Below, piece by piece: positions 14,635 through 37,769 of a stretch of DNA of 64,000 nucleotides. How positions within the stretch are numbered: the stretch's first letter is position 1; each line of letters opens with the position of its first letter. Under the pieces are notes generated by a model that ran no database searches, had not been told where the DNA came from, and was given only the letters and a program-made list of their open reading frames with translations. A program made the position numbers and the translations under genes. Source of the stretch: Linyphia triangularis (Eukaryota; Arthropoda; Arachnida; Araneae; Linyphiidae). The DNA lies in NCBI GenBank assembly GCA_963978545.1, contig OZ021721.1, forward strand, positions 42,480,785 through 42,544,784. The letters run 5' to 3'.

Positions 14635-14642
14635 CGTTAACC

Positions 14643-15194: not shown

Positions 15195-17430
15195 AATAAA
15201 GTTTAAAAGAGCGACACGCGTTACACAAAAAAATGGCACTGAGAGGAGCCAATTTGTTCGAGGTAACTTGAGAAATTGCCGGGGAACTGTGCAGTACGGA
15301 CGGGCTAGCTAGTATAAGCTCGTTGAATGGTCAAGTACACGTTTCAGAGGGGGTTTCTAATTGGTGGGTCATAGTGTCGCCATGTACCACAAAGATTTTT
15401 CTAAAGACGGTGGTCGCGAGTAGAAGGTGGAGGGAAAACAGATGTTTGATTTAGGACAGGTTTCAAGAAGGGATAGAAAAAATTTGTGAGGGGTTTTACT
15501 TGAATGGTATTTTTGTTTGGTGTCCAAAAGGGGAGAGCTTTGAATCGAATGTAAGGAGCAGGTTTTTTTGGTGGGATTGATTGGATGATGTCATACAGTA
15601 TATATATATAAACAAAAATAAATAGTTTTGGTGTTTATTTAAAAATATGGAAAGAGAAAATGGATAAATGTGCTGAAATTTTTTCGAAAAATAAACTTGG
15701 TGATTGTTTTTCTGAGAGTCTGATTTTGGCAGGAGTACATTATTTGATTGGAGGAAGGTTAATAATTTAAGGAAATTTAAGAAAAATTTGACTGATGTAA
15801 GAGACAAAGAGTTTTGGCAAAGGATAAGATAAAACAATCTTTTCTTTGGATTGGATATAGAAATAATTTGAAGTCTAAATTTTGTGTGGATTTAAATGTT
15901 TAAAAAAAATTTAATAAATTGTTAATTTGCTTGGTGGAGTGTGAGTAGTTGCGGGGGTTTGATTTGGGATTTACTGGAGAATAAGATGTACCCTTTAAAT
16001 TAAATAGTTAAGCAAACAAGGCATGCATTTGTTTCATTGTGGTAAAGGCGCCAATACCTACAGTGAAATTCAAAGAAAGTTGCTCTATTCAATGAAAAAT
16101 CTGCTGGCAGAATTTAGTTGGAACGAGTTCTTTTACAACAAATATAATAATCGAAACGAGGGCTACCTATAACAACCTAACAGTCTTCAGGGAGGACGAT
16201 GGAAACTCAGGTCAAACAACAGGCAAGGGTCACCTACCTCAACAGGCACCAGCACGCGAAGATTAGAAGTGATGGTTTACAAGGATATCTACATCATCGA
16301 ATCTCTCCTTCAAGAACAAAGAAAAATCCAAGAGGAGGATACCGGCAGCATAAAAATTTTCCTGATCGAGACGAAGGGAGAAGGATATCCAAGAGGAGGA
16401 TACCGTCATCAAATCGCCAATATCATCTACAAGAAAGACCACGGAGAAATCGCCAATATCATCTACAAGAAAGACCACTGAGAAATCGCCATCAAATCGC
16501 CAATATCATCTACAGGAAAGACCGCCGAGAAATCGCCAACCGTCACCAAATCGCCATGAACCCAGTGCTCCAAGGGAGACAGCCATTGAATCACCGCCAA
16601 AGAAGAAAGAGGGAACTGCACGGACTCCCTAAACAAGAAAATCAAATGGACCATCCAGCACAGAAAAAGTGTCACTCTTTCCTACGACAGGGTCAGGACG
16701 TCAGGAGTGTGACAAGAAAAAAAAAAAAAAGAAAGGAAAGGTCTGTTTTGCCCGCGGGGAGGCAAAACACCCACACTGGAGATTTCCTCGGAATGGACAA
16801 TCTTCCCCCTCCCCTTTTGACAAGGAATGGAACACTCTTTATTACTTAGAGACAAGAGACAATTCCACTTCCCAACAGAACTACGTACTTTTGTATTGTT
16901 TTTTTAGGATTTGCTTTGACATTCTTTTCAGGTGAAAAAAAAATCATTCCAAACTTTCAGAATGGGATTTTAAAATTTTGTCTTTAGATGAATTTTATTT
17001 GCTTAAATGGAAGCTTGGGCCAGACAGCACATTTCACTCTGTTGGACAATAAAACAGGTGAAGTGGATTTTGAACTGTGAATACAAATGGAAAAAAAAAA
17101 GAAGCAATTTCATAGTTGAATTTTTAAATTGATATATTTTAATATTTTTTATGTTTGGTTGCATGTGTATTGTATGATTTCAAAAAAATGTGAATTGTAT
17201 TATGTGTGTTTAATTTGAAAGGGCGGAGAGAGTGTACAGGAACACATTTGAAAATTTGGGAAAAGAGGATAATGAAGTGAGAAAAGCAGTTGGCTAATTT
17301 GAGATTTAAAGGAGAAGTTAAGGTTTATGGGAAGTTACGAATGACAGACTTATTGACGTTGGTAAAGACCAAACGTTAAATTTACAATGAGCTGTCAATT
17401 TGAGAAGAGTTTTTTTTAAATTTGCATAGG
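15195..17430. other. Gypsy 3' region between pol and the 3' LTR
   Basis: About 2.2 kb with no recognised protein. It includes a (TA) tract near 15600, a 36-bp tandem repeat near 16410 with overlapping ORFs (16199-16849, 16269-16481), and homopolymer A runs. An env gene is not evident. Confidence 0.5.
16405..16540 (+). repeat. 36-bp in-frame tandem repeat
   Basis: Units of GAAATCGCCAATATCATC plus ACAAGAAAGACCACGGA occur about three times, the third expanded by an extra ATCAAATCGCC. The 36-bp period is a multiple of three, so any reading frame through it yields a 12-residue repeat (for example EIANIIYKKDHG). The overlapping ORFs owe their length to this. Confidence 0.75.
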
Positions 17431-17441
17431 TAGGAGGGTAT
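17430..17441 (+). promoter_or_regulatory. Polypurine tract before the 3' LTR
   Basis: The purine-rich sequence AGGTAGGAGGG ends two bases before the TG of the 3' LTR, the normal position for the plus-strand primer. Confidence 0.6.
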
Positions 17442-17821
17442 TGTTGTAAGATATTACAACACCTTTTATCCGGCAAGTAACCCTTAGGGGGTTAAGATAT
17501 AGTAATTTTTATAAAAGGGACTTCCTCCCACCAAGTGACGGAAATGAGTCTTTCCCTTGACCTTCGTCGCTCTCCTCCCACGCTTAGCAACTGTAAATAT
17601 TTAAATTCATTGGATTAGAAAGAAACAGTTTTAGGGTTTTAGCCAATCAGACTTGTTGGCCGGTTTTTGTCGAGTAAAGCTTATACAAAAATCTGCCACT
17701 TTTCTCCCTGACACCTACCTAGATAGAAGGTGTATCGTGCCCAGCTAGCCCAAATACATAAAGATGTTAGGTAAGTCCCTTTTTGTATTCCTGCGATATA
17801 CACATCTCTCCGCCAGGCTAA

Positions 17822-17857
<36 letters not shown>

Positions 17858-18058
17858 ACTTAAATATTGTCAATCTTAAATTTAAAATATATGATCTTAA
17901 ATAAATATCTTTAAAACTTTACATGTCTTTTGTTCTATTTCTTTGGAATTCAAGTGTTTTTCATGTACCGAACCTCTAAGCGAGAGAGTTACTAACCACG
18001 AGGGATCACGGCCACTTTATGATTCTTTGAAATCACCCTCCTCCCTCAGCTTAGAACA
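17442..18058 (+). repeat. 3' LTR of the Gypsy element
   Basis: 617 bp and essentially identical to the 5' LTR. I saw GGCAGG/GGCCGG, TACGCA/TACACA, one T deletion near the end, and about three extra AATA units. Confidence 0.95.
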
Positions 18059-20195: not shown

Positions 20196-20392
20196 TTATT
20201 AACAGATCAGCAGAGTGTAGTGCGGTCTGCCCCTTGCACAATTAAAAGTTTCAACAATACGACCACCGTAGTGCCGTTTGGTCCTTGTACAGTACCCAAA
20301 AAAAAATCAGAACGATGGCTATATCTTTTGTTCTAATTGTTGAAATAACAAACAAAAGGTACCGTTGTAAATCGTGGAAGGTTTTTAATAAT

Positions 20393-20398
20393 TGTATG
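20393..20398. repeat. TSD TGTATG, left copy
   Basis: TGTATG directly precedes AGTAGTATACC, and the same six bases follow GGTATACTACT at 33562-33567. X2 has a single copy of this site (reverse complement, near 37650). Confidence 0.9.
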
Positions 20399-20637
20399 AG
20401 TAGTATACCGGGGTACTAGAGGTACAAGGCGCCAGTTTGTCTGGGGGGGCGTGGCCTGTCTGGAGGGTGCGTAGCGTGTTGATAGGTGATGGATGGGTGA
20501 CAGGTGATTGATTGACAGGGTTACGTAACGATGATGTAATGGGTATGACGTGACTGTAAGTTGAGTTGTTTTTTTGCTTTAGTTTTGGTTTCGTTATAGG
20601 CTGATGTTGGTGACGTCACAGTGGGTATTCATTAGAG

Positions 20638-20908
20638 TTTAGTTTTTATGGAATGGCAACACTTGTTACTTTTGGTTTCTTGTCAAGTAGTTGGAGTTGA
20701 GTTGTACTCTAGCTGCTTGTAAAGGGAAACATTATTTTTATGAATAATGTAATGATGACGTCACAGTGGGTTTAGTTTTTACGGAATGGCAACACTTGTT
20801 AGTTTTGGTTTCCTGTCAAGTAGCTGGAGTTGAGTTGTACTATAGCTGCTTGTGAAGGGAAATGTTATTTATATGAATAATGTAATGATGACGTCACAGT
20901 GGGTATGA
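20638..20908 (+). repeat. 135-bp subterminal tandem repeat with CRE sites (left arm)
   Basis: Two units each run from TTAGTTTTTA(T/C)GGAATGGC to GATGACGTCACAGTGGGT. Each ends in TGACGTCA, the palindromic CREB/ATF site. More TGACGTCA copies occur at about 20609, 20913, 21098 and 21252. The right arm has only one unit (about 33196-33330). These may be promoter or enhancer elements for genes near the tip. Function is inferred from the motif only. Confidence 0.75.
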
Positions 20909-21304
20909 CGTCATAACATGTAAATAAATACGAATTTAATTGGTTTCTGTTGGAATATATCCGAATTTTGCTTATGAGAGGAGGCAACACCTCCAATTTT
21001 AGATGACATTATCATCCCTCGTTCCTCATCCATAGGGGTTGAGTTGTAGCGTTCCTTCTCCTAAATGGAGGCATTAAAGTTATAAGCTTTTATCTCGTGA
21101 CGTCACAGCCATTTAAACCTGATTTTAACGTGTTTGAGCGGAAAATTTAGCATTTAGAGGTGGGTATAAAGTTTAGTTTATATGGAGTGGAGTTGAGTTG
21201 TACTACAGTAACTTGTAAAAGAAGACATTATTTTTATAATTTATATTTTTATGACGTCACAATATTAATGGAGTGGCAAACTATTAAAGTTTAGTTTTTA
21301 CGGA

Positions 21305-21490
21305 GTGGCAACGATCTGTGATGCAGACAGGGCACTTAAGGAATGTATGATATGGAGAACAGATAACTGTTATCGCAACCTATATCTAGACAGAGTATGC
21401 GCACGATATAACAAGTTAACTAAAACACCAATTCATAGGGAAGAAATTAATGTTCTACTAATAGTTTTTTTTATTTCTGTCAAGATGTAA
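21305..21490 (+). CDS. Small ORF of 61 codons, left arm
   Basis: It starts MATICDADRALKECMIW and has four cysteines. The copy in the right arm (32605-32790) is intact with two residue changes (Y/C and T/A). No family is recognised. A TATA-like ATATTTATAGAGAAGA follows at about 21586. Identity between arms reflects recent duplication, so conservation is not proof of coding. Confidence 0.35.
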   Translation: MATICDADRALKECMIWRTDNCYRNLYLDRVCARYNKLTKTPIHREEINVLLIVFFISVKM

Positions 21491-22588
21491 TATAGTCATT
21501 GAAGTTTTTCAATTCGTTTGTTTTCCAAAATGTCATTTGACAGTTGGTTATATTTATCACTCTACACATTTTACGCCATAGCATATATTTATAGAGAAGA
21601 AATGAATACCTATATTATTGATTTTAATGTACGTTTAAATGGTAGAATGCTTGCTAGCATTTCTATAATAAGGAGACATTTTTAAGAAGATTTCATTTGG
21701 AAAGATGGAAAATTTTGTTAAAAAGTGGTTATTGTATATATTTCGGTGTGCTTATAATATTTTCAATCCTTTATATTTTTGCGAAAGAAAGTGGTAGAAC
21801 AGTTGTGGATTTTACTTTGCAAGTAAACATTTCAATAAATGATTCTTTTCTGCAATCCTAAATAGAGGGAACAGAATCGTTTTAGCATACTTTGAATAAA
21901 TAGTTTGAAATGAATACTATGTACAATTTTCTTAATTTAAATATATATTATAGATCGCCACCTTTTATTTTTACTTGTATGCGACTAATAAAGGTGTTTA
22001 TAGAATGAATTAAGAAATGTTAAATTATTCAATAGTACTTCAAATATCACATAGATATTTTAGCGTATAAGAAATATTCTTGTGGATTTTCTTAAATATA
22101 TAACAATTTTATAGAAAAAGTCTTTGGAGAGAATTTTTCATGGAGAACTTGCCGTATTTCTTTTTTTTTAATTCAATATATTATAGTCTTATAGTAAAAA
22201 AAAAAAAAAAAAAAGCCTTTCAGGAGGAATATTTCAGAGGGAACTTGCGTTTTTTTCTTTAATGTAATTAAATTTCATAGGGAAAAAAGCCTTCCGAGAG
22301 GAGTTTTCAAGGGGAATTTGTCGTTTTTCCTTCAATATATTATGATTTCATAGAAAAAGCCTTTCAGGAGGAGTTTTAAGGATATATATGTATATGAAAT
22401 TGTTATACATGAAAATTGTTTTATGAGAGGGTTTCTAAAGGTAAGAAATTATTACTCATACAAAGGTCTTTCTAAAGGAATTTCAACTACGTACCACTCA
22501 TCAGATAAGGTTTGTTTAATCATGATATCATGAGTAAACATCATGCGATGCTGCGAGTTTGGTCATCACGTGATACTTGTCGACCAAT

Positions 22589-22606
22589 AATATATTTATA
22601 GAGAAG
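22589..22606 (+). promoter_or_regulatory. Candidate TATA region upstream of the AlkB-fusion gene
   Basis: ATATATTTATAGAGAAGA lies about 115 bp before the ATG at 22713. The same sequence occurs near 21585 and, in reverse complement, in the right arm. The repeated use suggests a shared promoter core, but transcription starts are unknown. Confidence 0.35.
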
Positions 22607-22712
22607 ATCACTTGATATCACAGCGTTCTTCGAAAGGTCGCTATCACTGACTAAACTTCATTTCTCACTTGATATTGCTAACAGAAGCTGCTGCTGCTAC
22701 TCACTACTAGAA

Positions 22713-24089
22713 ATGGCCGATTTAGTTCTAGAAAATATTGAAAACTTCTATGATTTAGACTATTCTCAACAATTGTTTCTTGAATTGTTGAAATACAATT
22801 ATCAAGATTTAAAACTCTGCTTCAGTGGGAGAAATTACATTCCTAAGAGGAAGGTCCTTGCATTTGGTGATTACGGTCTTAGCTATGCCTTCTCCGGAAC
22901 GAGCGTCGCTGCTGAGTCATGCACCCCCACGCTACTAGCCATTAAGAAGGATGTGGAAAGCAAGACAGGACAAGAGTTCAACTATGCCCTTCTCAATTTC
23001 TACCCAGATGGATATGCCAAGATTGGGGCACACAAGGACGATGAACCATGTCTTGACCCAACGTCTATCATCCCCACGCTAAGTCTTGGAGCCGCCCGGA
23101 CCATGCAGTTTGCTCGATCTCAATTCCAGGCCCATAAAGTATTGCTGGAAAGTGGATCGCTTCTTCTCATGAAACCCCCAACAAACAACTTTTGGAGCCA
23201 TGAAATTCCTGCTGAGCCTACGGTGACGGAGCCTAGAATCAGCATTACCTTCAGGAAACTCGTTGAAAGACCCCGAGATGTTCCCTCCCACAATTTTCCT
23301 TCGCAAAAGCGATCGTTTGATGAAGCAATCCCCGAAGACGACTGGTTGACCCGACTATATGCCCCAGCAAAGAAAAATAGTGAGTGCCTTAAAGAGTGGA
23401 ACCTCGGGTTTGGTTTTGTAGTGTCACTACATCAATATGACTCTCGTTTTTTCATTCATATGTGTCAACAAGGAGGTATCCAGAAAATTGTAATGAACAT
23501 GAGCACATTTGTGGACTTTATGAACAAAATCTTTCTTGTGAATACGAAATATTCAACTTCAAGTACCGTGTGTAATAACCAACTCCTAATCTTATCACAG
23601 AAAGGTGAGCTAGTTTTCAAACAAATTTTTAATTTTCAACTTAAAGACAGTTTTTTAAAAGTGGATGATAATAATCTCATTAAAATTAAAGACCTTATAC
23701 CCGAAATGTGTGAAACAATTAAAGAATCTCTTTTGTCTCTATTAAATTCTAAAATTCTTCTTAAATGTGCAGCGAATGTTAATGTACCTCCTAATGTAGA
23801 TTTATTTAATGAATATGTCTCTGCTTTGCGACTTGAAGTTGAAACTAATGTTTTTAAGTTATTTCGTTGTGAAGGGTGCGTTCACAGCGCAATGGGACAA
23901 CAATCACACGCCTGTATAACTGCCTCGGTAGAAGATCAATTTTGGTATGTGGGTGACAGTGCAATTCTCATACTGAATGTAAATACTATCATTGAAACTT
24001 TGATATCTAAAAATGTTATTCACTTATTTGATAAAGATTTCTTCAAAGTTATTTCTTGGAATGCTTTGAAAGATCATTTAAAATTTTAA
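22713..24089 (+). CDS. ALKBH2-like dioxygenase fused to an unknown C-terminal domain (left copy)
   Basis: 458 codons, intact. Residues about 30-185 are an AlkB-type 2-oxoglutarate/Fe(II) dioxygenase: the iron ligands are the H-x-D of AHKDDE (H107, D109) and H163 in FWSHEIP, and the 2-oxoglutarate site is R175 with R181 (PRISITFR). NFYPDGYAKIGAHKDDE and LESGSLLLM match the ALKBH2/3 pattern. That family removes alkyl groups from 1-methyladenine and 3-methylcytosine in DNA. The ~270-residue C-terminal part is unfamiliar and contains C-x2-C-x9-H-x-C at 386-401, a possible zinc site. The start follows a leader with CTGCTGCTGCTAC, and the ORF has no introns. This copy has Cys70 where the right-arm copy has Trp, the residue usual in the family. 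A role in repairing a replicating element's genome is inference. Confidence 0.9.
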   Translation: MADLVLENIENFYDLDYSQQLFLELLKYNYQDLKLCFSGRNYIPKRKVLAFGDYGLSYAFSGTSVAAESCTPTLLAIKKDVESKTGQEFNYALLNFYPDGYAKIGAHKDDEPCLDPTSIIPTLSLGAARTMQFARSQFQAHKVLLESGSLLLMKPPTNNFWSHEIPAEPTVTEPRISITFRKLVERPRDVPSHNFPSQKRSFDEAIPEDDWLTRLYAPAKKNSECLKEWNLGFGFVVSLHQYDSRFFIHMCQQGGIQKIVMNMSTFVDFMNKIFLVNTKYSTSSTVCNNQLLILSQKGELVFKQIFNFQLKDSFLKVDDNNLIKIKDLIPEMCETIKESLLSLLNSKILLKCAANVNVPPNVDLFNEYVSALRLEVETNVFKLFRCEGCVHSAMGQQSHACITASVEDQFWYVGDSAILILNVNTIIETLISKNVIHLFDKDFFKVISWNALKDHLKF

Positions 24090-24156
24090 ATTGCTGTAAA
24101 TAATTGTCCATTTAAATTCTATGTTATTCAGATATTTTAAAACTTATGAGATTATA

Positions 24157-24162
24157 AATAAA
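24157..24162 (+). terminator. Poly(A) signal of the left AlkB-fusion gene
   Basis: AATAAA lies 68 bp after the stop codon and is also present in the right arm (TTTATT near 29938-29943). The convergent small ORF ends only about 110 bp further on. Confidence 0.6.
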
Positions 24163-24272
24163 ATGTATTTCATTCAATAATTTGTGTGTGTGATTTTAAT
24201 AATAGAACAGTTTTAAACAACACTAGTTTATTGAATAAGGTTCCCACCTTAAAGCATGTTTTACATTTCGTT

Positions 24273-24509
24273 TCACCTTCCCTCGAACATTTTTTTTTTT
24301 ACAGGTGACTTTAACAAATTTTTATTTCCAATAAACTGCTTTGGGACAGTTAAATCTTGTATTGCTGTATCATATATACTTCTGGCATTACTTTTGCTAC
24401 TGTACATATAATTGCAAAAGTTGACAATATTAGAGTTTGGTATTTTTTCTCCGTTTAGTGAAATTTTGTCCTTTGGTATTCCATGATAAGTTGATAAGAT
24501 TTTCATCAT
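24273..24509 (-). pseudogene. Small convergent ORF, left copy with altered C-terminus
   Basis: The first ~71 codons (MMKILSTYHGIPKDK..., VPKQFIGNKNLLKSP) match the right-arm ORF at 29591-29875. An A run is 11 long here and 9 there, so this copy ends KKKMFEGR instead of running into the basic tail. I cannot say which is ancestral, but the longer right-arm version is more likely the intact form. No family is assigned. Confidence 0.5.
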
Positions 24510-24599
24510 TTATGTAATAATATCTTTATCATAATCATATATGTTTCATAAATTTTTACTCACACTTATACGTATTTAAATTATATAACTGTATATTTG

Positions 24600-24833
24600 T
24601 ATTAATCATAGAGATAGCATCTTTTTTTTACTTAAACTTTCAATGCACATACCATCATTTTCAATGTAAGAAGAAGGATTTTTGGAATGTATCAATTTGT
24701 TAAGAAAAGATTTGTTGTAAAAATGATTTTTTTTTTAAAAATAAAAAAAAAAAATATTTAAAATATTGTGTATTCTTTCTTTTATTTTGTCAGAGTGAAT
24801 AAAATTTATTTCCATCTATTTTTTTCTTTAAAA

Positions 24834-24865
<32 letters not shown>

Positions 24866-25455
24866 GCAATAAAAATTATATTTTTTTGCAAAAAGTTTTT
24901 TTTTCTTTTATAAAATTATTTTTCTTTTGTTAATTTTTTTTAATATTTTTTTTGTAAAAAGTTTTTTTTTTCTAACTTTAATTTCTTTTATTTGAAAAAT
25001 GTATTTTTATTTTGTAAAATATTTTTTTTTTCTAACTTAAAATTTCTACTTTAAAAATTTAAAAGTTGTTATATTTTCTCTAAGTGTTTTAAATAATAAA
25101 CTATACTATATTTTTTTACACTTACATTTACAATAATAATAATAATGACACCCATATCACATTTAAAAAAAAAATATTATATTAAATAACTTCTAAAGGT
25201 GGTGGTTCAATTTCAGGCTCACTTGTCACATCTTTTGGAGTTCATTGAATACTTAGAAATTTCTAAAGTTCTTGTAGATATAACGCGACCTTTTCGTCCT
25301 CAACCATACCCATTTCACAATTTTTATTAACACTTTTACATATTAAAATATCTAATTGTATATTTGTATTAATCAAAGAGATATCACTTTTTTTTTTTTT
25401 TTTTTTTTACTTAAACTTTCAATGCGCATACCATCTTTTTTTTTTATCTTTAAAT
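24600..25455 (-). repeat. Duplicated ~130-bp leader units, left arm
   Basis: Two diverged direct copies lie at about 24550-24670 and 25330-25455. On the minus strand each has a motif related to ATGGCATGTGCATTGAAAG, an A run, then GATATCTCT/GCTATCTCT and ACAAATATAC. They precede the small ORF starting MMKIL and a stop-broken ORF containing MVEDEKVALYLQEL. The same pair is in the right arm. Confidence 0.6.
24720..25060. other. Poly-T/poly-A low-complexity DNA, left arm
   Basis: Long T runs (for example about 24837-24865) separated by short AT-rich pieces. The mirrored stretch in the right arm (about 29150-29490) has different run lengths. No gene is seen. Confidence 0.6.
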
Positions 25456-25853
25456 AATAATACTATTCCATCTTTAACACATTTCATAACATACACTGTT
25501 CATTTCATAACTGCTGTTAAAATATACAGAATATTTCTTGCTTATTTTTTTTTTTTTTTTTGAAATACTAATGCGAAGAAATTTCTTTGTACCACTTTAA
25601 AAGAAATTCTCATATCACAATTTTTTACTTAAAAACTTTTTTTTTTGTAAAATATTAAAAATTACACAAAAAATATTTTCAAGCATGTCTGAAAGTCTTC
25701 GTCATCCCCCTTTTTTTGAAAAAAATAGTGCTTCAAGATACAACATACATCAACCGATAATAAAAGTAGTTGAGTATTAAAGACATTACTGAACTTCTTA
25801 AAATGAAAATGTGTGCTTTCAATATGACATTTTTTTAATGATTGAAGTGTTTG

Positions 25854-25953
<100 letters not shown>

Positions 25954-26655
25954 TCTTAAATATACTAAAAACTTGTCCTCTGTAAACTTAGAATTCTATA
26001 AGTTGGAGATATACCAAAGAATGAGATTTTACATAAGTATTCAAACTAACCTGGTTCACTTTGAATAGTTCAAATATTCACAAACGTCTTGAGAGTACAT
26101 GCCTTCTCAATAAGGAATCAGTGCTAAAATCAGAAGATAAATACTGCGTATTTGAATGTTCTTCACTTTCTGTACGATCTCTTACAAATAATGGAGTATT
26201 ATCCGTGAAAATAGATTATGTTACATACTAGACTTAAGAGAATGCAACTCTTTTGACTGTTTAAAAATATGATAGGAAATGATATTTCAAAGCTTTTCTC
26301 ACAAAAAAACTCGTTTCTCCACATACGAAGAAAAATTTAAAGGGGTGAAAAAATTATTACTTACCTGCATTTAAGATACAGGAGACGCATAGATGAGGGA
26401 CGTGTATACACGATAGATATCTACTATTTGGCCATATCAGGTAAATGCTTTTATTTTAACACCAGTTAAGGGAGAGGGCCTCTTTTGGGGATCTATGTAA
26501 AGTGAGATTCATTTATTTTGCGTAATTTAATGTTATTATTTTAAGCAACGTTGAAAAAAAATTTAAAAAGAAGAAAAAATTTAACAACTTAAGATAAAAA
26601 AAACTTAGAAAAGAAAAAAAAAAAAATATTTAAAAAAAAAACTGTAACTCCTAAA

Positions 26656-26690
<35 letters not shown>

Positions 26691-26876
26691 AACTTAGTGT
26701 TTAATTTATATATAAAATTTCCAAAAATTTATTTTTTACATGCATATTTTATTATTATCACACATAATATTAAATTTATACGTTACTACATATTTTTTTT
26801 TTAGAAAATAATATGATTTTGTACTAACTTATTCCTAAAAAAAATTTCAGAATACGAATGATATAAAATAAATATT

Positions 26877-27104
26877 GTGTACAGGTATAACACATTCGTT
26901 AAACTTGGTGTCATGAAATTTGTTCAGAAAACACAAACAAGACCAAAGAGAAGGAAACACGTATTTTCCCCCAAGATACAACTAGTACTCACACACAAAA
27001 CTTCATGGTGTGATTACTTGTATGAAAAGAGGAAATTTTCCAAGTATTTATATAGTACAAAAATAATTCAAAAAGTTTTAATATTGTCACATATTTTCAT
27101 ATAA
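26877..27104 (+). CDS. Small ORF at the palindrome centre, left copy
   Basis: Open for 75 codons. The first ATG gives a product starting MKFVQKTQTRPKRRKHVF, basic and pointing toward the centre. The right arm has the same ORF reversed (27087-27332), and both run into the spacer so their ends differ. No family is recognised. It may be chance. Confidence 0.3.
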   Translation: MYRYNTFVKLGVMKFVQKTQTRPKRRKHVFSPKIQLVLTHKTSWCDYLYEKRKFSKYLYSTKIIQKVLILSHIFI

Positions 27105-27332
27105 CAATATTAAAACATGAGACAATATTAAAACTTTTTGAATTATTTTTGTACTATATAAATACTTGGAAAATATCCTCTTTTCATACAAGTAATCACA
27201 CCATGAAGTTTTGTGTGTGAGTACTAGTTGTATCTTGGGGGAAAATACGTGTTTCCTTCTCTTTGGTCTTGTTTGTGTTTTCTGAACAAATTTCATGACA
27301 CCAAGTTTAACGAATGTGTTATACCTGTACAC
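27087..27332 (-). CDS. Small ORF at the palindrome centre, right copy
   Basis: Reverse-oriented partner of the ORF at 26877-27104, with one internal change (K/I) and a different C-terminus because it crosses the spacer in the other direction. Low coding confidence. Confidence 0.3.
   Translation of the reverse strand: MYRYNTFVKLGVMKFVQKTQTRPKRRKHVFSPKIQLVLTHKTSWCDYLYEKRIFSKYLYSTKIIQKVLILSHVLILLYENM
27089..27120. other. Spacer (loop) of the giant palindrome
   Basis: The left arm ends TTTTAATATTGTC at 27088 and the right arm starts GACAATATTAAAA at 27121. The 32 bases between include an extra ACAATATTAAAAC, so the centre contains a short local duplication of arm sequence, a possible trace of how the arms were joined. 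Confidence 0.85.
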
Positions 27333-27827
27333 AATATTTATTTTATATCATTCTTATTCTGAAATTTTTTTAGGAATAAGTTAGTACAAAATCATATTAT
27401 TTTCTAAAAAAAAATATGTAGTAACGTATAAATTTAATATTATGTGTGATAATAATAAAATATGCATGTAAAAAATAAATATTTGGAAATTTTATATATA
27501 AATTAAACACTAACTTTTTTTTTTTTTTTTTTTTTACATTTAGGAGTTACAGTTTTTTTTTTAATATTTTTATTTTTTTCTTTTCTAAGTTTTTTTATCT
27601 TAAGTTGTTAAATTTTTTCTTCTTTTTAAATTTTTTTTCAACGTTGCTTAAAATAATAACATTAAATTACGCAAAATAAATGAATCTCACTTTACATAGA
27701 TCCCCAAAAGAGGCCCTCTCCCTTAACTGGTGTTAAAATAAAAGCATTTATTGATATGGCAAAATAGTAGATATCTATCGTGTATACACGTCCCTCATCT
27801 ATGCGTCTCCTGTATCTTAAATGCAGG

Positions 27828-28150
27828 TAAGTAATCATTTTTTCACCCCTTTATATTTTTCTTCGTATGTGGAGAAACGAGTTTTTTGTGAAAAAAGCTT
27901 TGAAATATCATTTCCTATCATATTTTTAAACAGTCAAAAGAGTTGCATTCTTTTAAGTCTAGTATGTAACATAATCTATTTTCACGGATAATACTCCATT
28001 ATTTGTAAGAGATCGTACAGAAAGTGAAGAACATTCAAATACGCAGTATTTATCTTCTGATTTTAGCACTGATTCCTTATTGAGAAGGAATGTACTCTCA
28101 AGACGTTTGTGAATATTTGAACTATTCAAAGTGAACCAGGTAAGTTTGAA
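27828..28150 (+). other. Possible spliced exon segment with two donor-like sites, right arm
   Basis: GCAG|GTAAGT near 27828 and CCAG|GTAAGT near 28142 fit 5' splice sites. Between them is an open stretch that looks coding (SIFTDNTPLFVRDRTESEE, then SNTQYLSSDFSTDSLLRR), bounded by stops. In the left arm the second site is GTTAGT. Acceptors are not clear, so this is only a candidate exon. Confidence 0.25.
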
Positions 28151-28612
28151 TACTTATGTAAAATCTCATTCTTTGGTATATCTCCAACTAATAGAATTCT
28201 AAGTTTACAGAGGACAAGTTTTTAGTATATTTAAGACCATATATATATATATGACAAACACTTCAATCATTAAAAAAATGTCACATTGAAAGCACACATT
28301 TTCATTTTAAGAAGTTCAGTAATATCTTTAATACTCAACTACTTTTATTATCGGTTGATGTATGTTGTATCTTGAAGCACTATTTTTTTCAAAAAAAGGG
28401 GGATGACGAAGACTTTCAGACATGCTTGAAAATATTTTTTGTGTAATTTTTGATATTTTACAAAAAAAAAAAGTTTTTAAGTAAAAAATTGTGATATGAG
28501 AATTTCTTTTAAAGTGGTACAAAGAAATTTCTTCGCATTAGTATTTCAAAAAAAATAAGCAAGAAATATGCTGTATATTTTAACAGCAGTTATGAAATGA
28601 ACAGTGTATGTT

Positions 28613-28853
28613 ATGAAATGTGTTAAAGATGGAATAGTATTATTATTTAAAGATAAAAAAAAAGATGGTATGCGCATTGAAAGTTTAAGTAAAAAAAAAA
28701 AAAAAAAAAAAAAAAAGGTGATATCTCTTTGATTAATACAAATATACAATTAGATATTTTAATATGTAAAAGTGTTAATAAAAATTGTGAAATGGGTATG
28801 GTTGAGGACGAAAAGGTCGCGTTATATCTACAAGAACTTTAGAAATTTCTAAG
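28613..28853 (+). pseudogene. Broken small ORF with an internal A run, right arm
   Basis: From the ATG at 28613 the frame reads MKCVKDGIVLLFKDKKKDGM, then RIESLS, into a 26-base A run. After the run, the frame carrying DISLINTNIQLDILI and MVEDEKVALYLQEL is offset by -1. The second leader copy and the left arm show the same offset despite different run lengths. It ends at a TAG. It could be a decayed gene, a frameshift product or chance. Confidence 0.3.
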
Positions 28854-29240
28854 TATTCAATGAACTCCAAAAGATGTGACAAATGAGCTTGAAATTGAAC
28901 CACCACCTTTAGAAGTTATTTAATATAATATTTTTTTTTTTAAATGTGATATGGGTGTCATTATTATTATTATTGTAAATGTAAGTGTAAAAAAATATAG
29001 TATAGTTTATTATTTAAAACACTTAGAGAAAATATAACAACTTTTAAATTTTTAAAGTAGAAATTTTAAGTTAGAAAAAAAAATATTTTACAAAATAAAA
29101 ATACATTTTTCAAATAAAAGAAATTAAAGTTAGAAAAAAAAAAACTTTTTACAAAAAAAATATTAAAAAAAAATAAAAAAAGAAAAATAATTTTATAAAA
29201 GAAAAAAAAACCTTTTTGAAAATAATATAATTTTTTTTGC

Positions 29241-29273
<33 letters not shown>

Positions 29274-29590
29274 AAGAAAAAAATAGATGGAAATAAATTT
29301 TATTCACTCTGACAAAATAAAAGAAAGAATACACAATATTTTAAATATTTTTTTTTTATTTTTTAAAAAAAAATCATTTTTACAACAAATCTTTTTTTAA
29401 CAAATTGATACATTCCAAAAATCCTTCTTCTTACATTGAAAATGATGGCATGTGCATTGAAAGTTTAAGTTAAAAAAAGATGCTATCTCTATGATTAACA
29501 CAAATATACAGTTATATAATTTAAATACGTATAAGTGTGAGTAAAAATTTATGAAACATATATGATTATGATAAAGATATTATTACATAA

Positions 29591-29875
29591 ATGATGAAAA
29601 TCTTATCAACTTATCATGGAATACCAAAGGACAAAATTTCACTAAACGGAGAAAAAATACCAAACTCTAATATTGTCAACTTTTGCAATTATATGTACAG
29701 TAGCAAAAGTAATGCCAGAAGTATATATGTTACAGCAATACAAGATTTAACTGTCCCAAAGCAGTTTATTGGAAATAAAAATTTGTTAAAGTCACCTGTA
29801 AAAAAAAATGGTCGAGGGAAGGTGAAACGAAATGTAAAACATGCTTTAAAGTTGGAACCTTATTCAATAAACTAG
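29591..29875 (+). CDS. Small outward ORF with basic tail, right copy
   Basis: 94 codons: a compact N-terminal part (MMKILSTYHGIPKDK, EKIPNSNIVNFCNYM, VPKQFIGNKNLL), then a basic end (GRGKVKRNVKH, finishing EPYSIN). AATAAA overlaps the last codons, so the 3' end is close, as in compact viral-type genomes. It is convergent with the AlkB-fusion gene, about 135 bp apart. The family is not recognised. The left copy is frameshifted by an A-run change. Confidence 0.5.
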   Translation: MMKILSTYHGIPKDKISLNGEKIPNSNIVNFCNYMYSSKSNARSIYVTAIQDLTVPKQFIGNKNLLKSPVKKNGRGKVKRNVKHALKLEPYSIN

Positions 29876-30010
29876 TGTTGTTTAAAACTGTTCTATTATT
29901 AAAATCACACAGACACAAATTATTGAATGAAATACATTTTATTTATAATCTCATAAGTTTTAAAATATCTGAATAACATAGAGTTTAAATGGACAATTAT
30001 TCACAGCAAT

Positions 30011-31387
30011 TTAAAATTTTAAATGATCTTTCAAAGCATTCCAAGAAATAACTTTGAAGAAATCTTTATCAAATAAGTGAATAACATTTTTAGATATCAA
30101 AGTTTCAATGATAGTATTTACATTCAATATGAGAATTGCACTGTCACCCACATACCAAAATTGATCTTCTACCGAGGCAGTTATACAGGCGTGTGATTGT
30201 TGTCCCATTGCGCTGTGAACGCACCCTTCACAACGAAATAACTTAAAAACATTAGTTTCAACTTCAAGTCGCAAAGCAGAGACATATTCATTAAATAAAT
30301 CTACATTAGGAGGTACATTAACATTCGCTGCACATTTAAGAAGAATTTTAGAATTTAATAGAGACAAAAGAGATTCTTTAATTGTTTCACACATTTCGGG
30401 TATAAGGTCTTTAATTTTAATGAGATTATTATCATCCACTTTTAAAAAACTGTCTTTAAGTTGAAAATTAAAAATTTGTTTGAAAACTAGCTCACCTTTC
30501 TGTGATAAGATTAGGAGTTGGTTATTACACACGGTACTTGAAGTTGAATATTTCGTATTCACAAGAAAGATTTTGTTCATAAAGTCCACAAATGTGCTCA
30601 TGTTCATTACAATTTTCTGGATACCTCCTTGTTGACACATATGAAGGAAAAAACGAGAGTCATATTGATGTAGTGACGCTACAAAACCAAACCCGAGGTT
30701 CCACTCTTTAAGGCACTCACTATTTTTCTTTGCTGGGGCATATAGTCGGGTCAACCAGTCGTCTTCGGGGATTGCTTCATCAAACGATCGCTTTTGCGAA
30801 GGAAAATTGTGGGAGGCAACATCTCGGGGTCTTTCAACGAGTTTCCTGAAGGTAATGCTGATTCTAGGCTCCGTTACCGCAGGCTCAGCAGGAATTTCAT
30901 GGCTCCAAAAGTTATTTGTTGGGGGTTTCATGAGAAGAAGCGATCCACTTTCCAGCAATACTTTATGGGCCTGGAATTGAGATCGAGCAAACTGCATGGT
31001 CCGGGCGGCTCCAAGACTTAGCGTGGGGATGATGGACGTTGGGTCAAGACATGGTTCATCGTCCTTGTGTGCCCCAATCTTGGCATATCCATCTGGGTAG
31101 AAATTGAGAAGGGCATAGTTGAACTCTTGTCCTGTCTTGCTTTCCACATCCTTCTTAATGGCTAGTAGCGTGGGGGTCCATGACTCAGCAGCGACGTTCG
31201 TTCCGGAGAAGGCATAGCTAGGACCGTAATCACCAAATGCAAGGACCTTCCTCTTAGGAATGTAATTTCTCCCACTGAAGCAGAGTTTTAAATCTTGATA
31301 ATTGTATTTCAACAATTCAAGAAACAATTGTTGAGAATAGTCTAAATCATAGAAGTTTTCAATATTTTCTAGAACTAAATCGGCCAT
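30011..31387 (-). CDS. ALKBH2-like dioxygenase fused to an unknown C-terminal domain (right copy)
   Basis: 458 codons, intact, with seven residue differences from the left copy among about nine base changes. The catalytic H107, D109, H163, R175 and R181 are all present. Residue 70 is Trp and residue 56 is Pro, while the left copy has Cys and Leu. The ALKBH2 family has a Trp-x-Pro at this point, so this copy looks less altered. The C-terminal domain and its C-x2-C-x9-H-x-C site are the same. The gene is transcribed toward the palindrome centre, as in the left arm. Confidence 0.9.
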   Translation of the reverse strand: MADLVLENIENFYDLDYSQQLFLELLKYNYQDLKLCFSGRNYIPKRKVLAFGDYGPSYAFSGTNVAAESWTPTLLAIKKDVESKTGQEFNYALLNFYPDGYAKIGAHKDDEPCLDPTSIIPTLSLGAARTMQFARSQFQAHKVLLESGSLLLMKPPTNNFWSHEIPAEPAVTEPRISITFRKLVERPRDVASHNFPSQKRSFDEAIPEDDWLTRLYAPAKKNSECLKEWNLGFGFVASLHQYDSRFFLHMCQQGGIQKIVMNMSTFVDFMNKIFLVNTKYSTSSTVCNNQLLILSQKGELVFKQIFNFQLKDSFLKVDDNNLIKIKDLIPEMCETIKESLLSLLNSKILLKCAANVNVPPNVDLFNEYVSALRLEVETNVFKLFRCEGCVHSAMGQQSHACITASVEDQFWYVGDSAILILNVNTIIETLISKNVIHLFDKDFFKVISWNALKDHLKF

Positions 31388-32604
31388 TTCTAGTAGTGAG
31401 TAGCAGCAGCAGCTTCTGTTAGCAATATCAAGTGAGAAATGAAGTTTAGTCAGTGATAGCGACCTTTCGAAGAACGCTGTGATATCAAGTGATCTTCTCT
31501 ATAAATATATTATTGGTCGACAAGTATCACGTGATGACCAAACTCGCAGCATCGCATGATGTTTACTCATGATATCACGATTAAACAAACCTTATCTGGT
31601 GAGTGGTACGTAGTTGAAATTCCTTTAGAAAGACCTTTGTATTAGTAATAATTTCTTACCTTTAGAAACCCTCTCATAAAACAATTTTCATGTATAACAA
31701 TTTCATATACATATATATCCTTAAAACTCCTCCTGAAAGGCTTTTTCTATGAAATCATAATATATTGAAGGAAAAACGACAAATTCCCCTTGAAAACTCC
31801 TCTCGGAAAGCTTTTTTCCCTATGAAATTTAATTACATTAAAGAAAAAAACGCAAGTTCCCTCTGAAATATTCCTCCTGAAAGGCTTTTTTTTTTTTTTA
31901 CTATAAGACTATAATATATTGAATTAAAAAAAAAGAAATACGGCAAGTTCTCCATGAAAAATTCTCTCCAAAGACTTTTTCTATAAAATTGTTATATATT
32001 TAAGAAAATCCACAAGAATATTTCTTATACGCTAAAATATCTATGTGATATTTGAAGTACTATTGAATAATTTAACATTTCTTAATTCGTTCTATAAACA
32101 CCTTTATTAGTCGCATACAAGTAAAAATAAAAGGTGGCGATCTATAATATATATTTAAATTAAGAAAATTGTACATAGTATTCATTTCAAACTATTTATT
32201 CAAAGTATGCTAAAACGATTCTGTTCCCTCCATTTAGGATTGCAGAAAAGAATCATTTATTGAAATGTTTACTTGCAAAGTAAAATCCACAACTGTTCTA
32301 CCACTTTCTTTCGCAAAAATATAAAGGATTGAAAATATTATAAGCACACCGAAATATATACAATAACCACTTTTTAACAAAATTTTCCATCTTTCCAAAT
32401 GAAATCTTCTTAAAAATGTCTCCTTATTATAGAAATGCTAGCAAGCATTCTACCATTTAAACGTACATTAAAATCAATAATATAGGTATTCATTTCTTCT
32501 CTATAAATATATGCTATGGCGTAAAATGTGTAGAGTGATAAATATAACCAACTGTCAAATGACATTTTGGAAAACAAAAGAATTGAAAAACCTCAATGAC
32601 TATA

Positions 32605-32790
32605 TTACATCTTGACAGAAATAAAAAAAACTATTAGTAGAACATTAATTTCTTCCCTATGAATTGGTGCTTTAGTTAACTTGTTATATCGTGCGCATAC
32701 TCTGTCTAGACATAGGTTGCGATAACAGTTATCTGTTCTCCATATCATACATTCCTTAAGTGCCCTGTCTGCATCACAGATCGTTGCCAC
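32605..32790 (-). CDS. Small ORF of 61 codons, right arm
   Basis: Mirror copy of 21305-21490, intact, with two residue changes. It lies between the CRE-rich tip and the AlkB-fusion gene. Function unknown. Confidence 0.35.
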   Translation of the reverse strand: MATICDADRALKECMIWRTDNCYRNLCLDRVCARYNKLTKAPIHREEINVLLIVFFISVKM

Positions 32791-33561
32791 TCCGTAAAAA
32801 CTAAACTTTAATAGTTTGCCACTCCATTAATATTGTGACGTCATAAAAATATAAATTATAAAAATAATGTCTTCTTTTACAAGTTACTGTAGTACAACTC
32901 AACTCCACTCCATATAAACTAAACTTTATACCCACCTCTAAATGCTAAATTTTCCGCTCAAACACGTTAAAATCAGGTTTAAATGGCTGTGACGTCACGA
33001 GATAAAAGCTTATAACTTTAATGCCTCCATTTAGGAGAAGGAACGCTACAACTCAACCCCTATGGATGAGGAACGAGGGATGATAATGTCATCTAAAATT
33101 GGAGGTGTTGCCACCTCTCATAAGCAAAATTCGGATATATTCCAACAGAAACCAATTAAATTCGTATTTATTTACATGTTATGACGTCATACCCACTGTG
33201 ACGTCATCATTACATTATTCATATAAATAACGTTTCCTTTCACAAGCAGCTATAGTACAACTCAACTCCAGCTACTTGACAGGAAACCATAACTAACAAG
33301 TGTTGCCATTCCGTAAAAATTAAACTCTAATGAATACCCACTGTGACGTCACCAACATCAGCCTATAACGAAACCAAAACTAAAGCAAAAAACAACTCAA
33401 CTTACAGTCACGTCATACCCATTACAGCATCGTTACATAGCCCTGTCAATCAATCACCTGTCACCCATCCATCAATTGTCAACACGCCACGCCCCCTCCA
33501 GACAGACCACGCCCCCCAGACAAACTGGCGCCTTGTTCCTCTAGTACCGCGGTATACTACT

Positions 33562-33567
33562 TGTATG
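33562..33567. repeat. TSD TGTATG, right copy
   Basis: Directly follows GGTATACTACT. X1 sequence resumes after it (TAGTTTTTTTT.ATCATGAGGGG), matching X2 in reverse complement without the insertion. Confidence 0.9.
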
Positions 33568-34910
33568 TAGTTTTTTTTTATCATGAGGGGTAATCTACAT
33601 ATTAAAACAGAACCAAACTTTAAAAAGTTCAATAGCAACCTCGTAATATTATTCCATATTTGGATTCAGCATGAAAAAAGAATGCGAAATACAAAAATTC
33701 GTAATTTTCTAATGAATGGTTTGTAATTTAAATGATAAAACGAAAATGATAAATTAATGTTAAATAAAAAAGTTGTTCTTTTGGCCATAAATACTTAAAT
33801 AATTTATATATTTCAGTAATTTTTTTTTTCAAAAGATAGTTTGTAAATGACCAAACATAAATAGCAATCAACTTTTGCATCAATTTCTCTTTTAATAATT
33901 ATAAATTAATAAAACAATTTAATTTTTTTTTTAATAGAAACATATATTTTTTTTTTTAATAGAAACATATATTTTTTTTTTTGCTTTCATTAGATTCACC
34001 ATGGTCTGAAACCCCACCACAATTTTTTTCTTTTCATTTTGACTTTTAGTTCGATTTTTTAGCGAAAATGTAAAAAACGCTCACTTTAAGGGACTGTATA
34101 GTAGACGACTTTTGAAAACTATCAAAGATTAATTTAAGGTAAACTAGAGGTGTGGAAAATCGCATAACGTTCAATTATCGTAAAATAGGGTGAATAGGAA
34201 CAGCGGGGTGAATCGAAACAGAATTTCTTGAGATTACAAAAAAAATATATTATTTAATACAAACAAAGCAGTTTTATTTTTTGTATGTATATTTTTAATC
34301 TGTCTAACGTGTTTGGAATCGTGGAACATATGTTTTGTGTGGTTTTCAACAGTGTCCTTTTTTTTTAAATTTACTTCCTTAAATTACATTTATTTAAAAC
34401 CACATTTTTTAAGCAATTTCAATAAGTTATCTTTTAAAAATTTTACTGAATCTGGTGATTTTTTCATTTTATAAATAATTTCAACGATCAAGTTACATTT
34501 GTGTTTACAGTGAAATGTTTCTGTAAAATAATCACACTTTGCTGAACACTGTTTACTAATGCCTACATTTTATATTTATTAATTTTCTAATTATCAGTAG
34601 TATACGTTATACTTCTGCAATTACAGTTTTCGATATTTTATTTATTTCGTGTGAAGAATGCACATCGTTAACGTTGTATATAAATTATGTTACTTTTGCG
34701 TTTACTTGCTATTTTTGTATAAATCTTAAACATGTCACTATAAATCCAAGTAGTTTCTATGCAATTTTAGAATATTTGTATTTTATAACGTCGTGAAACG
34801 CCTCACTGACCGTTCGATTTCTCCCGCTGTGAAGTAGAATCTTAAAAATACCTTTCGTTTTATGGAAATTCTCCCTGAAGATCGGTCAAAAAATGGTCGA
34901 AACATTTTCG
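33568..34910. other. Interior of X1, no gene
   Basis: AT-rich DNA, largely the reverse complement of 36268-37665 in X2. It includes a duplicated TTTAATAGAAACATATATTTT near 33934-33980 and a GGGTGAATAGGAACAGCGGGG stretch near 34190 that X2 lacks. No ORF of note. Confidence 0.6.
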
Positions 34911-34918
34911 CTCATAAG

Positions 34919-35872
34919 CAGGGGCGTACTGGCCATAGGGTTGTTCGGTGCGATCACCGGGCCGGTCAGTGTCTGTAAAAAATGGGCCGGTTCGGTACTT
35001 AAGATTTTTTTATTTTTTTCAATGTATATAGTTGTCTTACTTAACGTTTTTTCAAAAAGCCCAATGTATTCATATCCCAATCACTTTATTTTGAATATTT
35101 TACACATTACTTTAATACGATACAGTGTATGTATTTTCCAAATACAACATACATAATATATATTATCGTAGGACGACTTTTTACCCATTTCATAGCTTTT
35201 AAGGTTAAATATATATTATAATTTCGGATGTCATTTTTTTATAAACATGCGAATTATATACATGAACATTCTTAATTTTGAAATTTAGATTGCCTATGTT
35301 ATAGGTTTTGCAATAAATTCTCAATGGTTTATGGAAATCAAATTCACTCAAGGGAAGTATAAATAATATACAGATAAAGTTGGATTTAATTAAACTAATT
35401 CTTAAAAAATTAAACTATTAAAATTAATTAATAACACTTTTTAATTATTGAATATAAATCTATATAAAAGTGAGTTGTCTGTACGTCTGAACCTTATACA
35501 AATCCACAGTTCTGCACCTAGAGGTACGAAATTTGTTACATAGAAGCTTTAGTACATGGAGATTGTAGAGAACAACTTTTAAATTCGATTAAAAGTTGTT
35601 TTCATTAAAATTTAAAGACATTAAAAATTCTTGGAAAATACAGCAGCGCGCGACCACACTGCTAGTAATCTCATTAAATATAAATATTTAAGCAATAAAA
35701 GCTGTTATTAAAACTATTTAAATATTATAAGTAATTATTTATTTAATTAATTAATGGAGTTATTTTATTATAAACAATAATTATTAAAGTTCAATTAACG
35801 ATTATATTGAAAATTTTGGCCGGCATCAAATCTAAAATCACCGGGCCGATTTTATGCTCCAGTACGTCCCTA
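34919..35872. mobile_element. hAT non-autonomous element, TSD CTCATAAG
   Basis: The left end is CAGGGGCGTACTGGCC; the right end reads ...CTCCAGTACGTCCCTA, giving an imperfect ~14-bp inverted repeat. CTCATAAG is duplicated at 34911-34918 and 35873-35880. CACCGGGCC occurs near both ends (about 34956, 35840). There is no transposase ORF. It is nested in X1 and contains a probable Helitron. Confidence 0.93.
35459..35665 (+). mobile_element. Short Helitron-like insertion inside the hAT element
   Basis: It begins TCTATATAAAAGTGAG after an A and ends GCAGCGCGCGACCACACTGCTAG before a T. Helitrons insert between A and T, start with TC and end CTRR with a 3' hairpin; AGCAG/CTGCT can pair at the end. 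207 bp with no ORF. It is called on these ends alone. Confidence 0.55.
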
Positions 35873-36079
35873 CTCATAAGTGACGTGTTTTTCAACATAA
35901 TGCATTGAAATTTGGTATATAGAGTAAATGATGAATTCTGAATCGAATGAAATGATAAAAAATAAGGGTTCGTATTGAAAATTTCGAAGATAGCGTTACT
36001 TTTACTTAGTAAATGGTCCCTCAAAAAAAAAAAAAAATTGCATCAGATATATAGAAAATCGTATGCAAAACATTTTGGT

Positions 36080-36260
36080 GCAAACCGTAAGATTCTACGA
36101 TAATTAGAACCGAAGATATAGCTATCGTTCTGTTTGTTTTTTTGGGTACTGTACCATGAAAAGCAGTCAGTATGGAACTTGTACAGTACCCCCCAAAAAA
36201 AAACAGAACGATGGTTATATCTTCGGTTCTAATTATCGTAGAATCTTACGGTTTGCACTA
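36080..36260. repeat. Abutting inverted ends of X1 and X2
   Basis: About 75 bp on each side of a 26-bp gap (36155-36180) are reverse complements: GCAAACCGTAAGATTCTACG... to GTACAGTACCC. This is the right end of X1 meeting the left end of X2 and could form a cruciform. Confidence 0.85.
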
Positions 36261-37762
36261 ATTTTGCATAATAATTGCATAGAAACTACTTGGATTTATA
36301 GTGTCATGTTTAAGATTAATACAAAAATAGCAAGTAAACGCAAAAGTAACAATTTATTTACAACATTAAAGATGTGCATTCTTCACACGAAATAAATAAA
36401 ATATCGAAAACTGTAATTGCAGAAGTATAACGTATACTACTGATAATTAGAAAATTGATAAATATAAAGTGTAGGCATTAGTAAACAGTATTCAGCAAAG
36501 TGTGATTATTTTACAGAAACATTTCACTGTAAACACAAATGTAACTTGATCGTTGAAATTATTTATAAAATGAAAAAGTCACATGATTCAGTAAAATTTT
36601 TACAGGATAACTTATTGAAATTGCTTAAAAAATGTTGTTTTAAATAAATGGAATTTAAGAAAACAAATTAAATAAAAAAAATTCATAGTTTACAGAAAAA
36701 ATAATTAATAATTTAAAAAACACGCTTTAATAGAAAAGTTAATTAAAAAGTAGAAGATAATTTTAAATAAGTTTGAAATAAGAATAGAGTGATTAACAAG
36801 AAATATTTATTTTATCGTAAAAAAGCGTGGGGTGCTTTTTAAGATATTTTCATAATGGCTCTACTTTTACTAATATCTGTCATTAAATATTTACAAAAAT
36901 TGACATCAAGCACCCCACGCTTTTTTACGATAAAATAAATATTTCTTGTTAATCACTCTATTCTTATTTCAAACTTATTTAAAATTATCTTCTACTTTTT
37001 AGTTCACTTTCCTATTAAAGCGTGTTTCTTAGTTTTTTAAACTATTGGTTATACGATAATTGAACGTTATGCGATTTTCCACACCTCTAGTTTACCTTGA
37101 ATTAATCTTTGATAGTTTTCAAAAGTCGTCTACTATACGGTCCCTTAAAGTGAGCGTTTTTTACATTTTCTCTAAAAAATCGAGAACCAATAGTCAAAAT
37201 GGAAAGAAAAAAATTATGGGGGGGTTTTAGAATATGGTAAATCTAATAAAAGCAAAAAAAATATATGTTTCTATTAAAAAAAAAAATTTAATTGCTTTAT
37301 TAATTAATAATTAATTATTAAAAAAGAAATTGATTCAAAAGCTGATTGCTATTTATGTTTGGCCATTTACAAACTACCTTTTGAAAAAAAAAAAAATTAC
37401 TGAAATATATTAATTATTTAAGTATTTATGGCCAAAAAACCAACTTTTTTATTTAACATTAGTTTATCATTTTCTTTTTATCCTTTAAATTACAAACCAT
37501 TCATTAGAAAATTACGAATTTTTGTATTTCGCATTCTTTTTTAATGCTGAATCCAAATATGGAATAATATTATGAGGTTGCTATTGAACTTTTTAAAATT
37601 TGGTTCTGTTTTAATATGTTGATGACCCCTCATGATAAAAAAAACTACATACAATTATTAAAAACCTTTCACGATTTACAACGGTACCTTTTGTTTGTTA
37701 TTTCAACAATTAGAACAAAAGATATAGCCATCGTTCTGGGTTTTTTTGGGGGGGTATTGTAC
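36181..37762 (-). mobile_element. Transposon X2, inverted copy of X1
   Basis: It starts GTACAGTACCCCCC and ends in the reverse-complement form (GTATTGTAC). The interior from about 36268 to 37665 is the reverse complement of X1 33568-34765. It carries the uninterrupted target site of the giant palindrome (TTAATAATTGTATGTAGTTTT in reverse complement, near 37640-37665). It contains a foldback at 36712-37033 that X1 lacks. Confidence 0.75.
36712..37033. repeat. Foldback (~127-bp arms) inside X2
   Basis: AATTTAAAAAACACGCTTTAATAG at the left pairs with CTATTAAAGCGTGTTTCTTAG at the right. Pairing continues inward to AAGCGTGGGGTGCTT/AAGCACCCCACGCTT, leaving a loop of about 70 bases (36839-36907). 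It is absent from X1 at the homologous place, so it is an insertion or a local inverted duplication. Confidence 0.85.
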
Positions 37763-37769
37763 AATGAAA

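Follow-up and report, generated by a model that had tools for sequence, protein, structure and literature searches.

We analysed a 64,000-nucleotide stretch of the genome of the spider Linyphia triangularis (assembly GCA_963978545.1, contig OZ021721.1, positions 42,480,785 to 42,544,784 of the forward strand; hereafter the window), in which a near-perfect palindrome occupies positions 20399-33561. This palindrome is itself the inserted unit and is bounded by 6-bp target-site duplications (TSDs). Its arms mirror one end of a Polinton, it belongs to a family of such copies in the same genome, and the arms of each copy have been copied from one another. We consider it likely that the element is non-autonomous, a palindromic satellite that arose by snap-back from Polinton/adintovirus-type elements and is remobilised by helper elements.

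Structure and insertion of the palindrome

Reverse-complement alignment placed the best symmetry centre at position 27104, dividing the element into a left arm of 6,706 bp (20399-27104, forward strand) and a right arm of 6,457 bp (27105-33561, reverse strand), both with the terminus AGTAGTATACC outermost. Read on one strand, the palindrome begins with AGTAGTATACC and ends with GGTATACTACT. Arm identity in the same alignment is 98.3% over 5.1 kb and falls to 96.8% in the central 2.3 kb, and about 30 nucleotides at the centre, read from the sequence there, are unpaired (approximately 27089-27120). A first-pass annotation of this DNA had given arms of 6,690 and 6,441 bp and a 32-bp spacer, which agrees with our values within alignment slack. 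The difference in arm length is mainly due to two features of the left arm, a 133-bp tandem duplication (20637-20904, forward strand) that the right arm lacks and a longer (AT)n tract. Self-inversion was not seen in any of 306 arbitrary 500-bp tiles from the window and loci L005-L033, a tile being counted as self-inverted if at least 300 bp matched at 85% or more; the window gave no match to Rfam.

The motif TGTATG stands on both sides of the palindrome (20393-20398 and 33562-33567). The element is nested in an older inverted repeat whose two arms (20282-20398 plus 33555-34185, into which the element is inserted, and 37049-37767) are about 90% alike. The left piece of this repeat covers 20282-20398 and the remainder 33562-37767, both on the forward strand and without a long open reading frame (ORF). 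The other arm of this repeat preserves the uninterrupted site with a single TGTATG (37648-37653, reverse strand), and therefore the whole palindrome represents one insertion with a 6-bp duplication, as the first-pass annotation had read the flanking motifs.

The arm is derived from one end of a Polinton

Comparing the arm with the same genome, the check proposed in the first-pass annotation, recovered Polinton-type elements that carry the window's AlkB gene at one end. In the full relative L056, an intact gene that we call geneX lies beside AlkB. L056 matches the window arm at 94% DNA identity, and the match continues for 400 bp past AlkB and ends at arm position 4092, inside geneX; L049 and L053 lose their match to the arm at the same place. 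What is left of geneX in the window is a C-terminal part, lying in the left arm at 24241-24489 (reverse strand, convergent to AlkB; tblastn E 1e-21) and in the right arm at 29611-29857 (forward strand; E 1e-22), with the full-Polinton match ending at 24490 and 29610, respectively. A second geneX relic, of the type found in L051, is located at 25221-25316 in the left arm (reverse strand; tblastn E 1e-8, 86% DNA match) and at 28789-28917 in the right arm (forward strand; E 1e-11), making the window arm a chimaera of two geneX types. Inward of this second relic follow about 1.8 kb that match no Polinton; diverged matches to the inner arm (about 67-79%) occur elsewhere in the genome besides the palindromes, mostly on contig C14.

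The arm is thus an AlkB-bearing Polinton end (terminus, AlkB-PUR gene and C-terminal part of geneX), followed after a sharp break by further sequence, and mirrored. The earlier proposal of descent from one end of a larger element is borne out by the way in which the arm tracks its full relative up to the break in the neighbouring geneX. An autonomous palindrome with unrelated transposition genes, named in the same annotation as the opposing case, was not seen, and no integrase, capsid or ATPase relics came up in the window arms when L049, L051 and L053 proteins were used as tblastn queries. Besides the two AlkB genes the element has no ORF of 120 or more amino acids, PolB and P transposase not being among the queries used there.

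A family of copies with homogenised arms

We searched the host genome (1.35 Gb in 369 contigs) with the first 501 bp of the element and obtained at least 65 matches (40 of 751 candidates scored), reading TSDs for those match pairs that had both ends in hand. At least eight copies were identified, all of them mirrored arrangements of the same arm, and exact 6-bp TSDs bound eight out of eight: the window element (A, TGTATG), B on C1 (AACGTC), C on C2 (GACCGA), D on C15 (CATAAC), E on C12 (ATCATT), F on C14 (GGCCTC), G on C3 (ATGAAC) and H on C1 (CCCATG). Not included in this count are the full element I, L051, a copy on C13 and an element at C8:72.89-72.93 Mb. The single defective derivative envisaged in the first-pass annotation is replaced by a family whose members have TSDs of their own, accompanied by other palindromes with other fold points. 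Several copies have been enlarged or trimmed by other insertions or deletions, the left terminus of B is slightly altered, the outermost 160 bp of H do not match those of the window element, and the central junctions vary among copies. The C13 copy (L052) adjoins the same repeat that surrounds the window element (20282-20398 and 33562-37767).

The history of the arms was followed in a tree on a 1.87-kb core, in which A, B, D, E, F and G are represented by two full-core arms each, C by a single arm and I_R as a further row; H, for which one arm was only half present, took no resolved position. In all six copies with two full-core arms, the arms were sisters (support 96-100/93-100). Private substitutions common to both arms numbered 8 in A, 7 in B, 4 in D, 13 in E, 89 in F and 14 in G, and those on single arms 16, 8, 5, 3, 26 and 1, respectively; in B and G, private frameshifting indels are likewise present on both arms. 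Core divergence was 0.1-1.6% within copies and 1.5-1.9% between copies, excluding F (6-8%) and H (1.2-3.0%). Since sister arms share private mutations, one arm of each copy was copied from the other.

Pooled omega for AlkB was 0.84 within copies, 0.36 between copies (0.40 without F) and about 0.25 against element I. The ratio of nonsynonymous to synonymous AlkB changes was 59:46 for those found on both arms, as compared to 32:10 for arm-specific ones (Fisher p = 0.026). Copy F supplies 73 of the 105 both-arm changes, and without it the counts become 21:11 and 18:7 (p = 0.78), with p = 0.078 for both-arm changes against neutral. Because the nominal significance rests on F and is lost without it, the data do not demonstrate that AlkB is under selection in the youngest copies.

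Full Polintons in the same genome

The same genome harbours full Polintons, the putative helpers. Domain matches of open frames in the fetched loci were to rve integrase (E 2e-11), adenain-like protease (2e-8) and, for the packaging ATPase, Adeno_IVa2 and Pox_A32 (5e-6). For the capsid protein, 2,192 relatives were counted; of the 120 listed, those bearing a name come mostly from spiders ('F54H12.2-like' proteins) and in a few cases from echinoderms. At least 60 genome matches to DNA_pol_B_2 passed the threshold, with 91 scored among 809 candidates, and at eight loci PolB lies 10.9-13.2 kb from an AlkB gene on the same strand. Each of the 12 isolated AlkB-capsid clusters has its AlkB and capsid genes convergent, with 2.5-2.6 kb between them. 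In L056, whose AlkB is 89% identical to that of the window, AlkB is followed by the convergent geneX, a small ORF and then the ATPase, protease and capsid genes. Full elements have terminal inverted repeats (TIRs), element I is flanked by the TSD TCGGGT, and L051 combines the terminus of the window family with integrase and capsid frames. AGT ends and 6-bp TSDs are common to the window family and the full elements.

A zinc-finger (ZF) ORF, which may be the N-terminal part of PolB, as it sits where PolB sits in other elements, is found on the AlkB side in element I (L050:6074-7477) and at the end away from AlkB at C6:93.37 Mb. Given this difference in ZF position, element I may be a recombinant. 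One large group of capsid genes, all scoring 774.6 bits, is scattered across many contigs, a pattern that a recent burst would leave.

Palindromes formed several times and from both Polinton ends

We surveyed the genome for neighbouring pairs of the same gene within 16 kb, based on 92 AlkB, 112 capsid, 93 ZF and 60 PolB scored matches, all lower bounds. ZF pairs pointed outward in 20 of 21 cases and capsid pairs inward in five of six. Among 22 AlkB pairs, 16 pointed inward, two outward (both within mirrored capsid-AlkB clusters) and four lay on the same strand, three of these four coming from one tandem array. PolB pairs were mirrored in four of 10 cases, a count in which one PolB gene can yield several matches. 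We then predicted palindrome centres from the gene-pair spacing. Seven of eight predicted centres were palindromic at 90-99% (L054, L055, L057, L059, L060, L061 and L062), and the eighth, L058, has identical arms of 236 bp around a 722-nucleotide loop centred on the prediction; the interior of the full element L056 was not palindromic.

These palindromes differ in where they fold. L060, L061 and L062 have no sequence in common with one another, and L054 and L055 have an arm region in common and fold about 1 kb apart. The window family derives from the AlkB end, whereas L057, L058 and L059 derive from the integrase end and fold just upstream of AlkB (L057), at about codons 60-70 of geneX (L058) and at about codons 50-95 of geneX (L059); no host DNA was seen at the centres of L058 and L059. 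Palindromes have therefore formed several times over in the same genome, and the layout typical of snap-back, one genome end mirrored about a fold point in a symmetric or looped form, is present. Two other arrangements came up in the survey: four same-strand AlkB genes at C3:39742346-39770391, arrayed in tandem with an 8.88-kb step rather than mirrored, and a compound cluster of several AlkB, capsid and ZF genes at C6:26855498-26908662, which includes one mirrored ZF-capsid-AlkB unit.

Origin of the palindromes

Extrachromosomal, protein-primed replication of Polintons has been argued mainly from their genes. Two identical termini with a mirrored interior are the expected residue of a snap-back at a replicating protein-primed end. 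According to our model, the protein-primed polymerase would produce a strand that folds or switches onto its own complement, and the resulting hairpin would be replicated to a palindrome bearing two copies of the same origin. The polymerase of full Polintons could then copy this palindrome in trans and their integrase could insert it, the latter as suggested by the ends and the TSD length. Replication through the hairpin would re-make identical arms in each cycle, with divergence setting in after insertion, and such an intermediate would explain why the arms agree within a copy. Of the snap-back origin put forward in the first-pass annotation, the mirrored layout of one end is confirmed, and the preference for a replicative snap-back over a chromosomal inverted duplication is still a matter of inference.

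Our data suggest that a viral-type copying accident is now a regular route of spread for these elements. We give even odds to the broader view that snap-back genomes of a protein-primed DNA element have become heritable, self-sustaining satellites of an animal germ line. Under this view, palindromes would have arisen repeatedly and independently from both Polinton ends, spread as families, had their arms renewed via a hairpin in every cycle and retained AlkB-PUR.

Several points weigh against a snap-back satellite. The 1.8 kb of inner arm that lacks a Polinton match and has diverged matches elsewhere is what would be expected of host DNA captured in a chromosomal event. Copy-specific central junctions are also expected from deletion at palindrome centres after insertion, and sister arms could also result from chromosomal gene conversion. 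The TSDs that were read belong to window-family copies and to element I, and mobility of the further palindromes is therefore putative. Finally, an extrachromosomal form, a terminal protein and mobilisation in trans were none of them observed.

The main rival is a chromosomal inverted duplication, in which a truncated integrated Polinton end was duplicated head-to-head together with neighbouring DNA, by a fork template switch or breakage-fusion, and the terminus at each side made the product a substrate for the Polinton integrase, allowing it to spread. The inner arm with its diverged matches, mostly on C14, and the chimaeric composition of the window arm both fit such an event. However, L058 and L059 fold inside a Polinton gene with no host DNA at the centre, L057 folds just upstream of AlkB, mirrored pairs are numerous and stem from both ends, and the shared private mutations require continued copying between arms. 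On balance, we regard an inverted duplication as unlikely.

The arms might also have grown as TIRs, by recombination or gene conversion between copies, with one end serving as the template for repair of the other until the repeats join up. Growth of long TIRs by exchange is proposed for Galileo (PMC3573991), full elements here have TIRs, and the arms are alike within copies; yet nothing left over from the integrase end, the opposite one, was found in the window arms, and the fetched centres resemble simple fold-backs, which makes TIR extension quite improbable. Fold-back chimaeras are a known artefact of assemblies or libraries, but the exact TSDs at eight of eight sites with different flanks, the empty site in the neighbouring repeat and core arms that differ by 0.1-1.6% with private changes leave this explanation hardly credible.

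Relation to known systems

Mavericks are described as having a protein-primed polymerase, AGT-type motifs at their ends and TSDs of 6 bp (PMC8097293). The window element resembles Polinton/Maverick (adintovirus-type) elements in its AGT-type ends, its 6-bp TSDs and its descent from elements bearing integrase, protease, ATPase and capsid genes, and differs from them in being a palindrome of one end with only AlkB and geneX relics. Defective interfering particles of adeno-associated virus (AAV) contain, according to PMC8235507, self-complementary snap-back genomes from either end, which are symmetric or asymmetric/looped and helper-dependent. The palindromes described here likewise mirror one end, are symmetric or looped, and represent both ends; whereas the AAV forms are packaged by-products of a rolling-hairpin virus, those in Linyphia are chromosomal, have TSDs and occur in families. 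Long inverted repeats that fill much of the element are also reported for Foldback-like transposons such as Galileo (PMC3573991). The window element shares this feature, but no transposase was seen in it, and its relatives carry an rve integrase.

Judged by titles and the beginnings of abstracts, no paper listed in searches of one open-access library has palindromic or snap-back Polintons, or AlkB in Polintons, as its subject, and the string 'palindrom' is absent from the available texts of PMC6431247, PMC11071296 and PMC8097293. The terms 'Polinton' and 'AlkB' co-occur in two listed papers, on giant-virus oxygenases and on N6-methyladenine (6mA) in Mucorales.

Chromosomal snap-back palindromes are products expected from protein-primed replication, and mirrored elements are found here repeatedly, from both ends, and with TSDs wherever these were read. 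If the broader view is correct, the divergence between arms would be an insertion clock, and past errors of Polinton replication would be recorded in the genome as fold points. The system would then offer datable insertions, a natural set of fold points for the study of template switching, and helper and satellite in one genome.

The fusion of AlkB with a PUR-like domain

Each arm carries one AlkB-PUR fusion ORF of 458 amino acids that points to the centre (22713-24089, forward strand; 30011-31387, reverse strand). The first-pass annotation had reported two intact AlkB genes; both frames are indeed open, but the left copy has Cys in place of Trp70, a residue invariant in the 10 aligned sequences. 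The AlkB domain matches Pfam PF13532 (E 2e-22 and 2e-21), and both copies retain the 2-oxoglutarate-Fe(II) residues HxD...H and Arg. For the C-terminal half of the ORF, Pur-alpha ranked first among the families compared, a ranking limited to that list; PC4, our first guess, was outranked. The window AlkB is fused to a PUR-like domain. Compared to ALKBH2-type AlkB and Pur-alpha, the window protein joins AlkB and this putative PUR domain in one chain, with a further helical, Cys-rich tail. This architecture, tail included, was present in 11 proteins from two relatives searches (9 and 10 matches). Both named AlkB-PUR relatives are from the spider Oedothorax gibbosus and are truncated or otherwise fused, and IMG/VR contains relatives of AlkB at three loci (30% identity). 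The AlkB-PUR fusion is an uncharacterised protein retained in the satellite.

Other repeats in the window

Upstream of the palindrome, a long terminal repeat (LTR) retrotransposon occupies 8280-18058, with direct repeats at 8280-8885 and 17442-18058 (97.6%) and overlapping interior frames that contain reverse transcriptase, RNase H and rve integrase domains. A 460-bp self-palindrome (83%) lies at 1189-1650, and 45039-48575 holds an inverted repeat whose arms, each about 440 bp long and 82-83% alike, are separated by 2.6 kb. Weak inverted matches (68-73%) connect 19202-42659 with 61185-62904. Because they remain collinear across insertions, they suggest that the nested elements at 19202-42659 sit in an older repeat.

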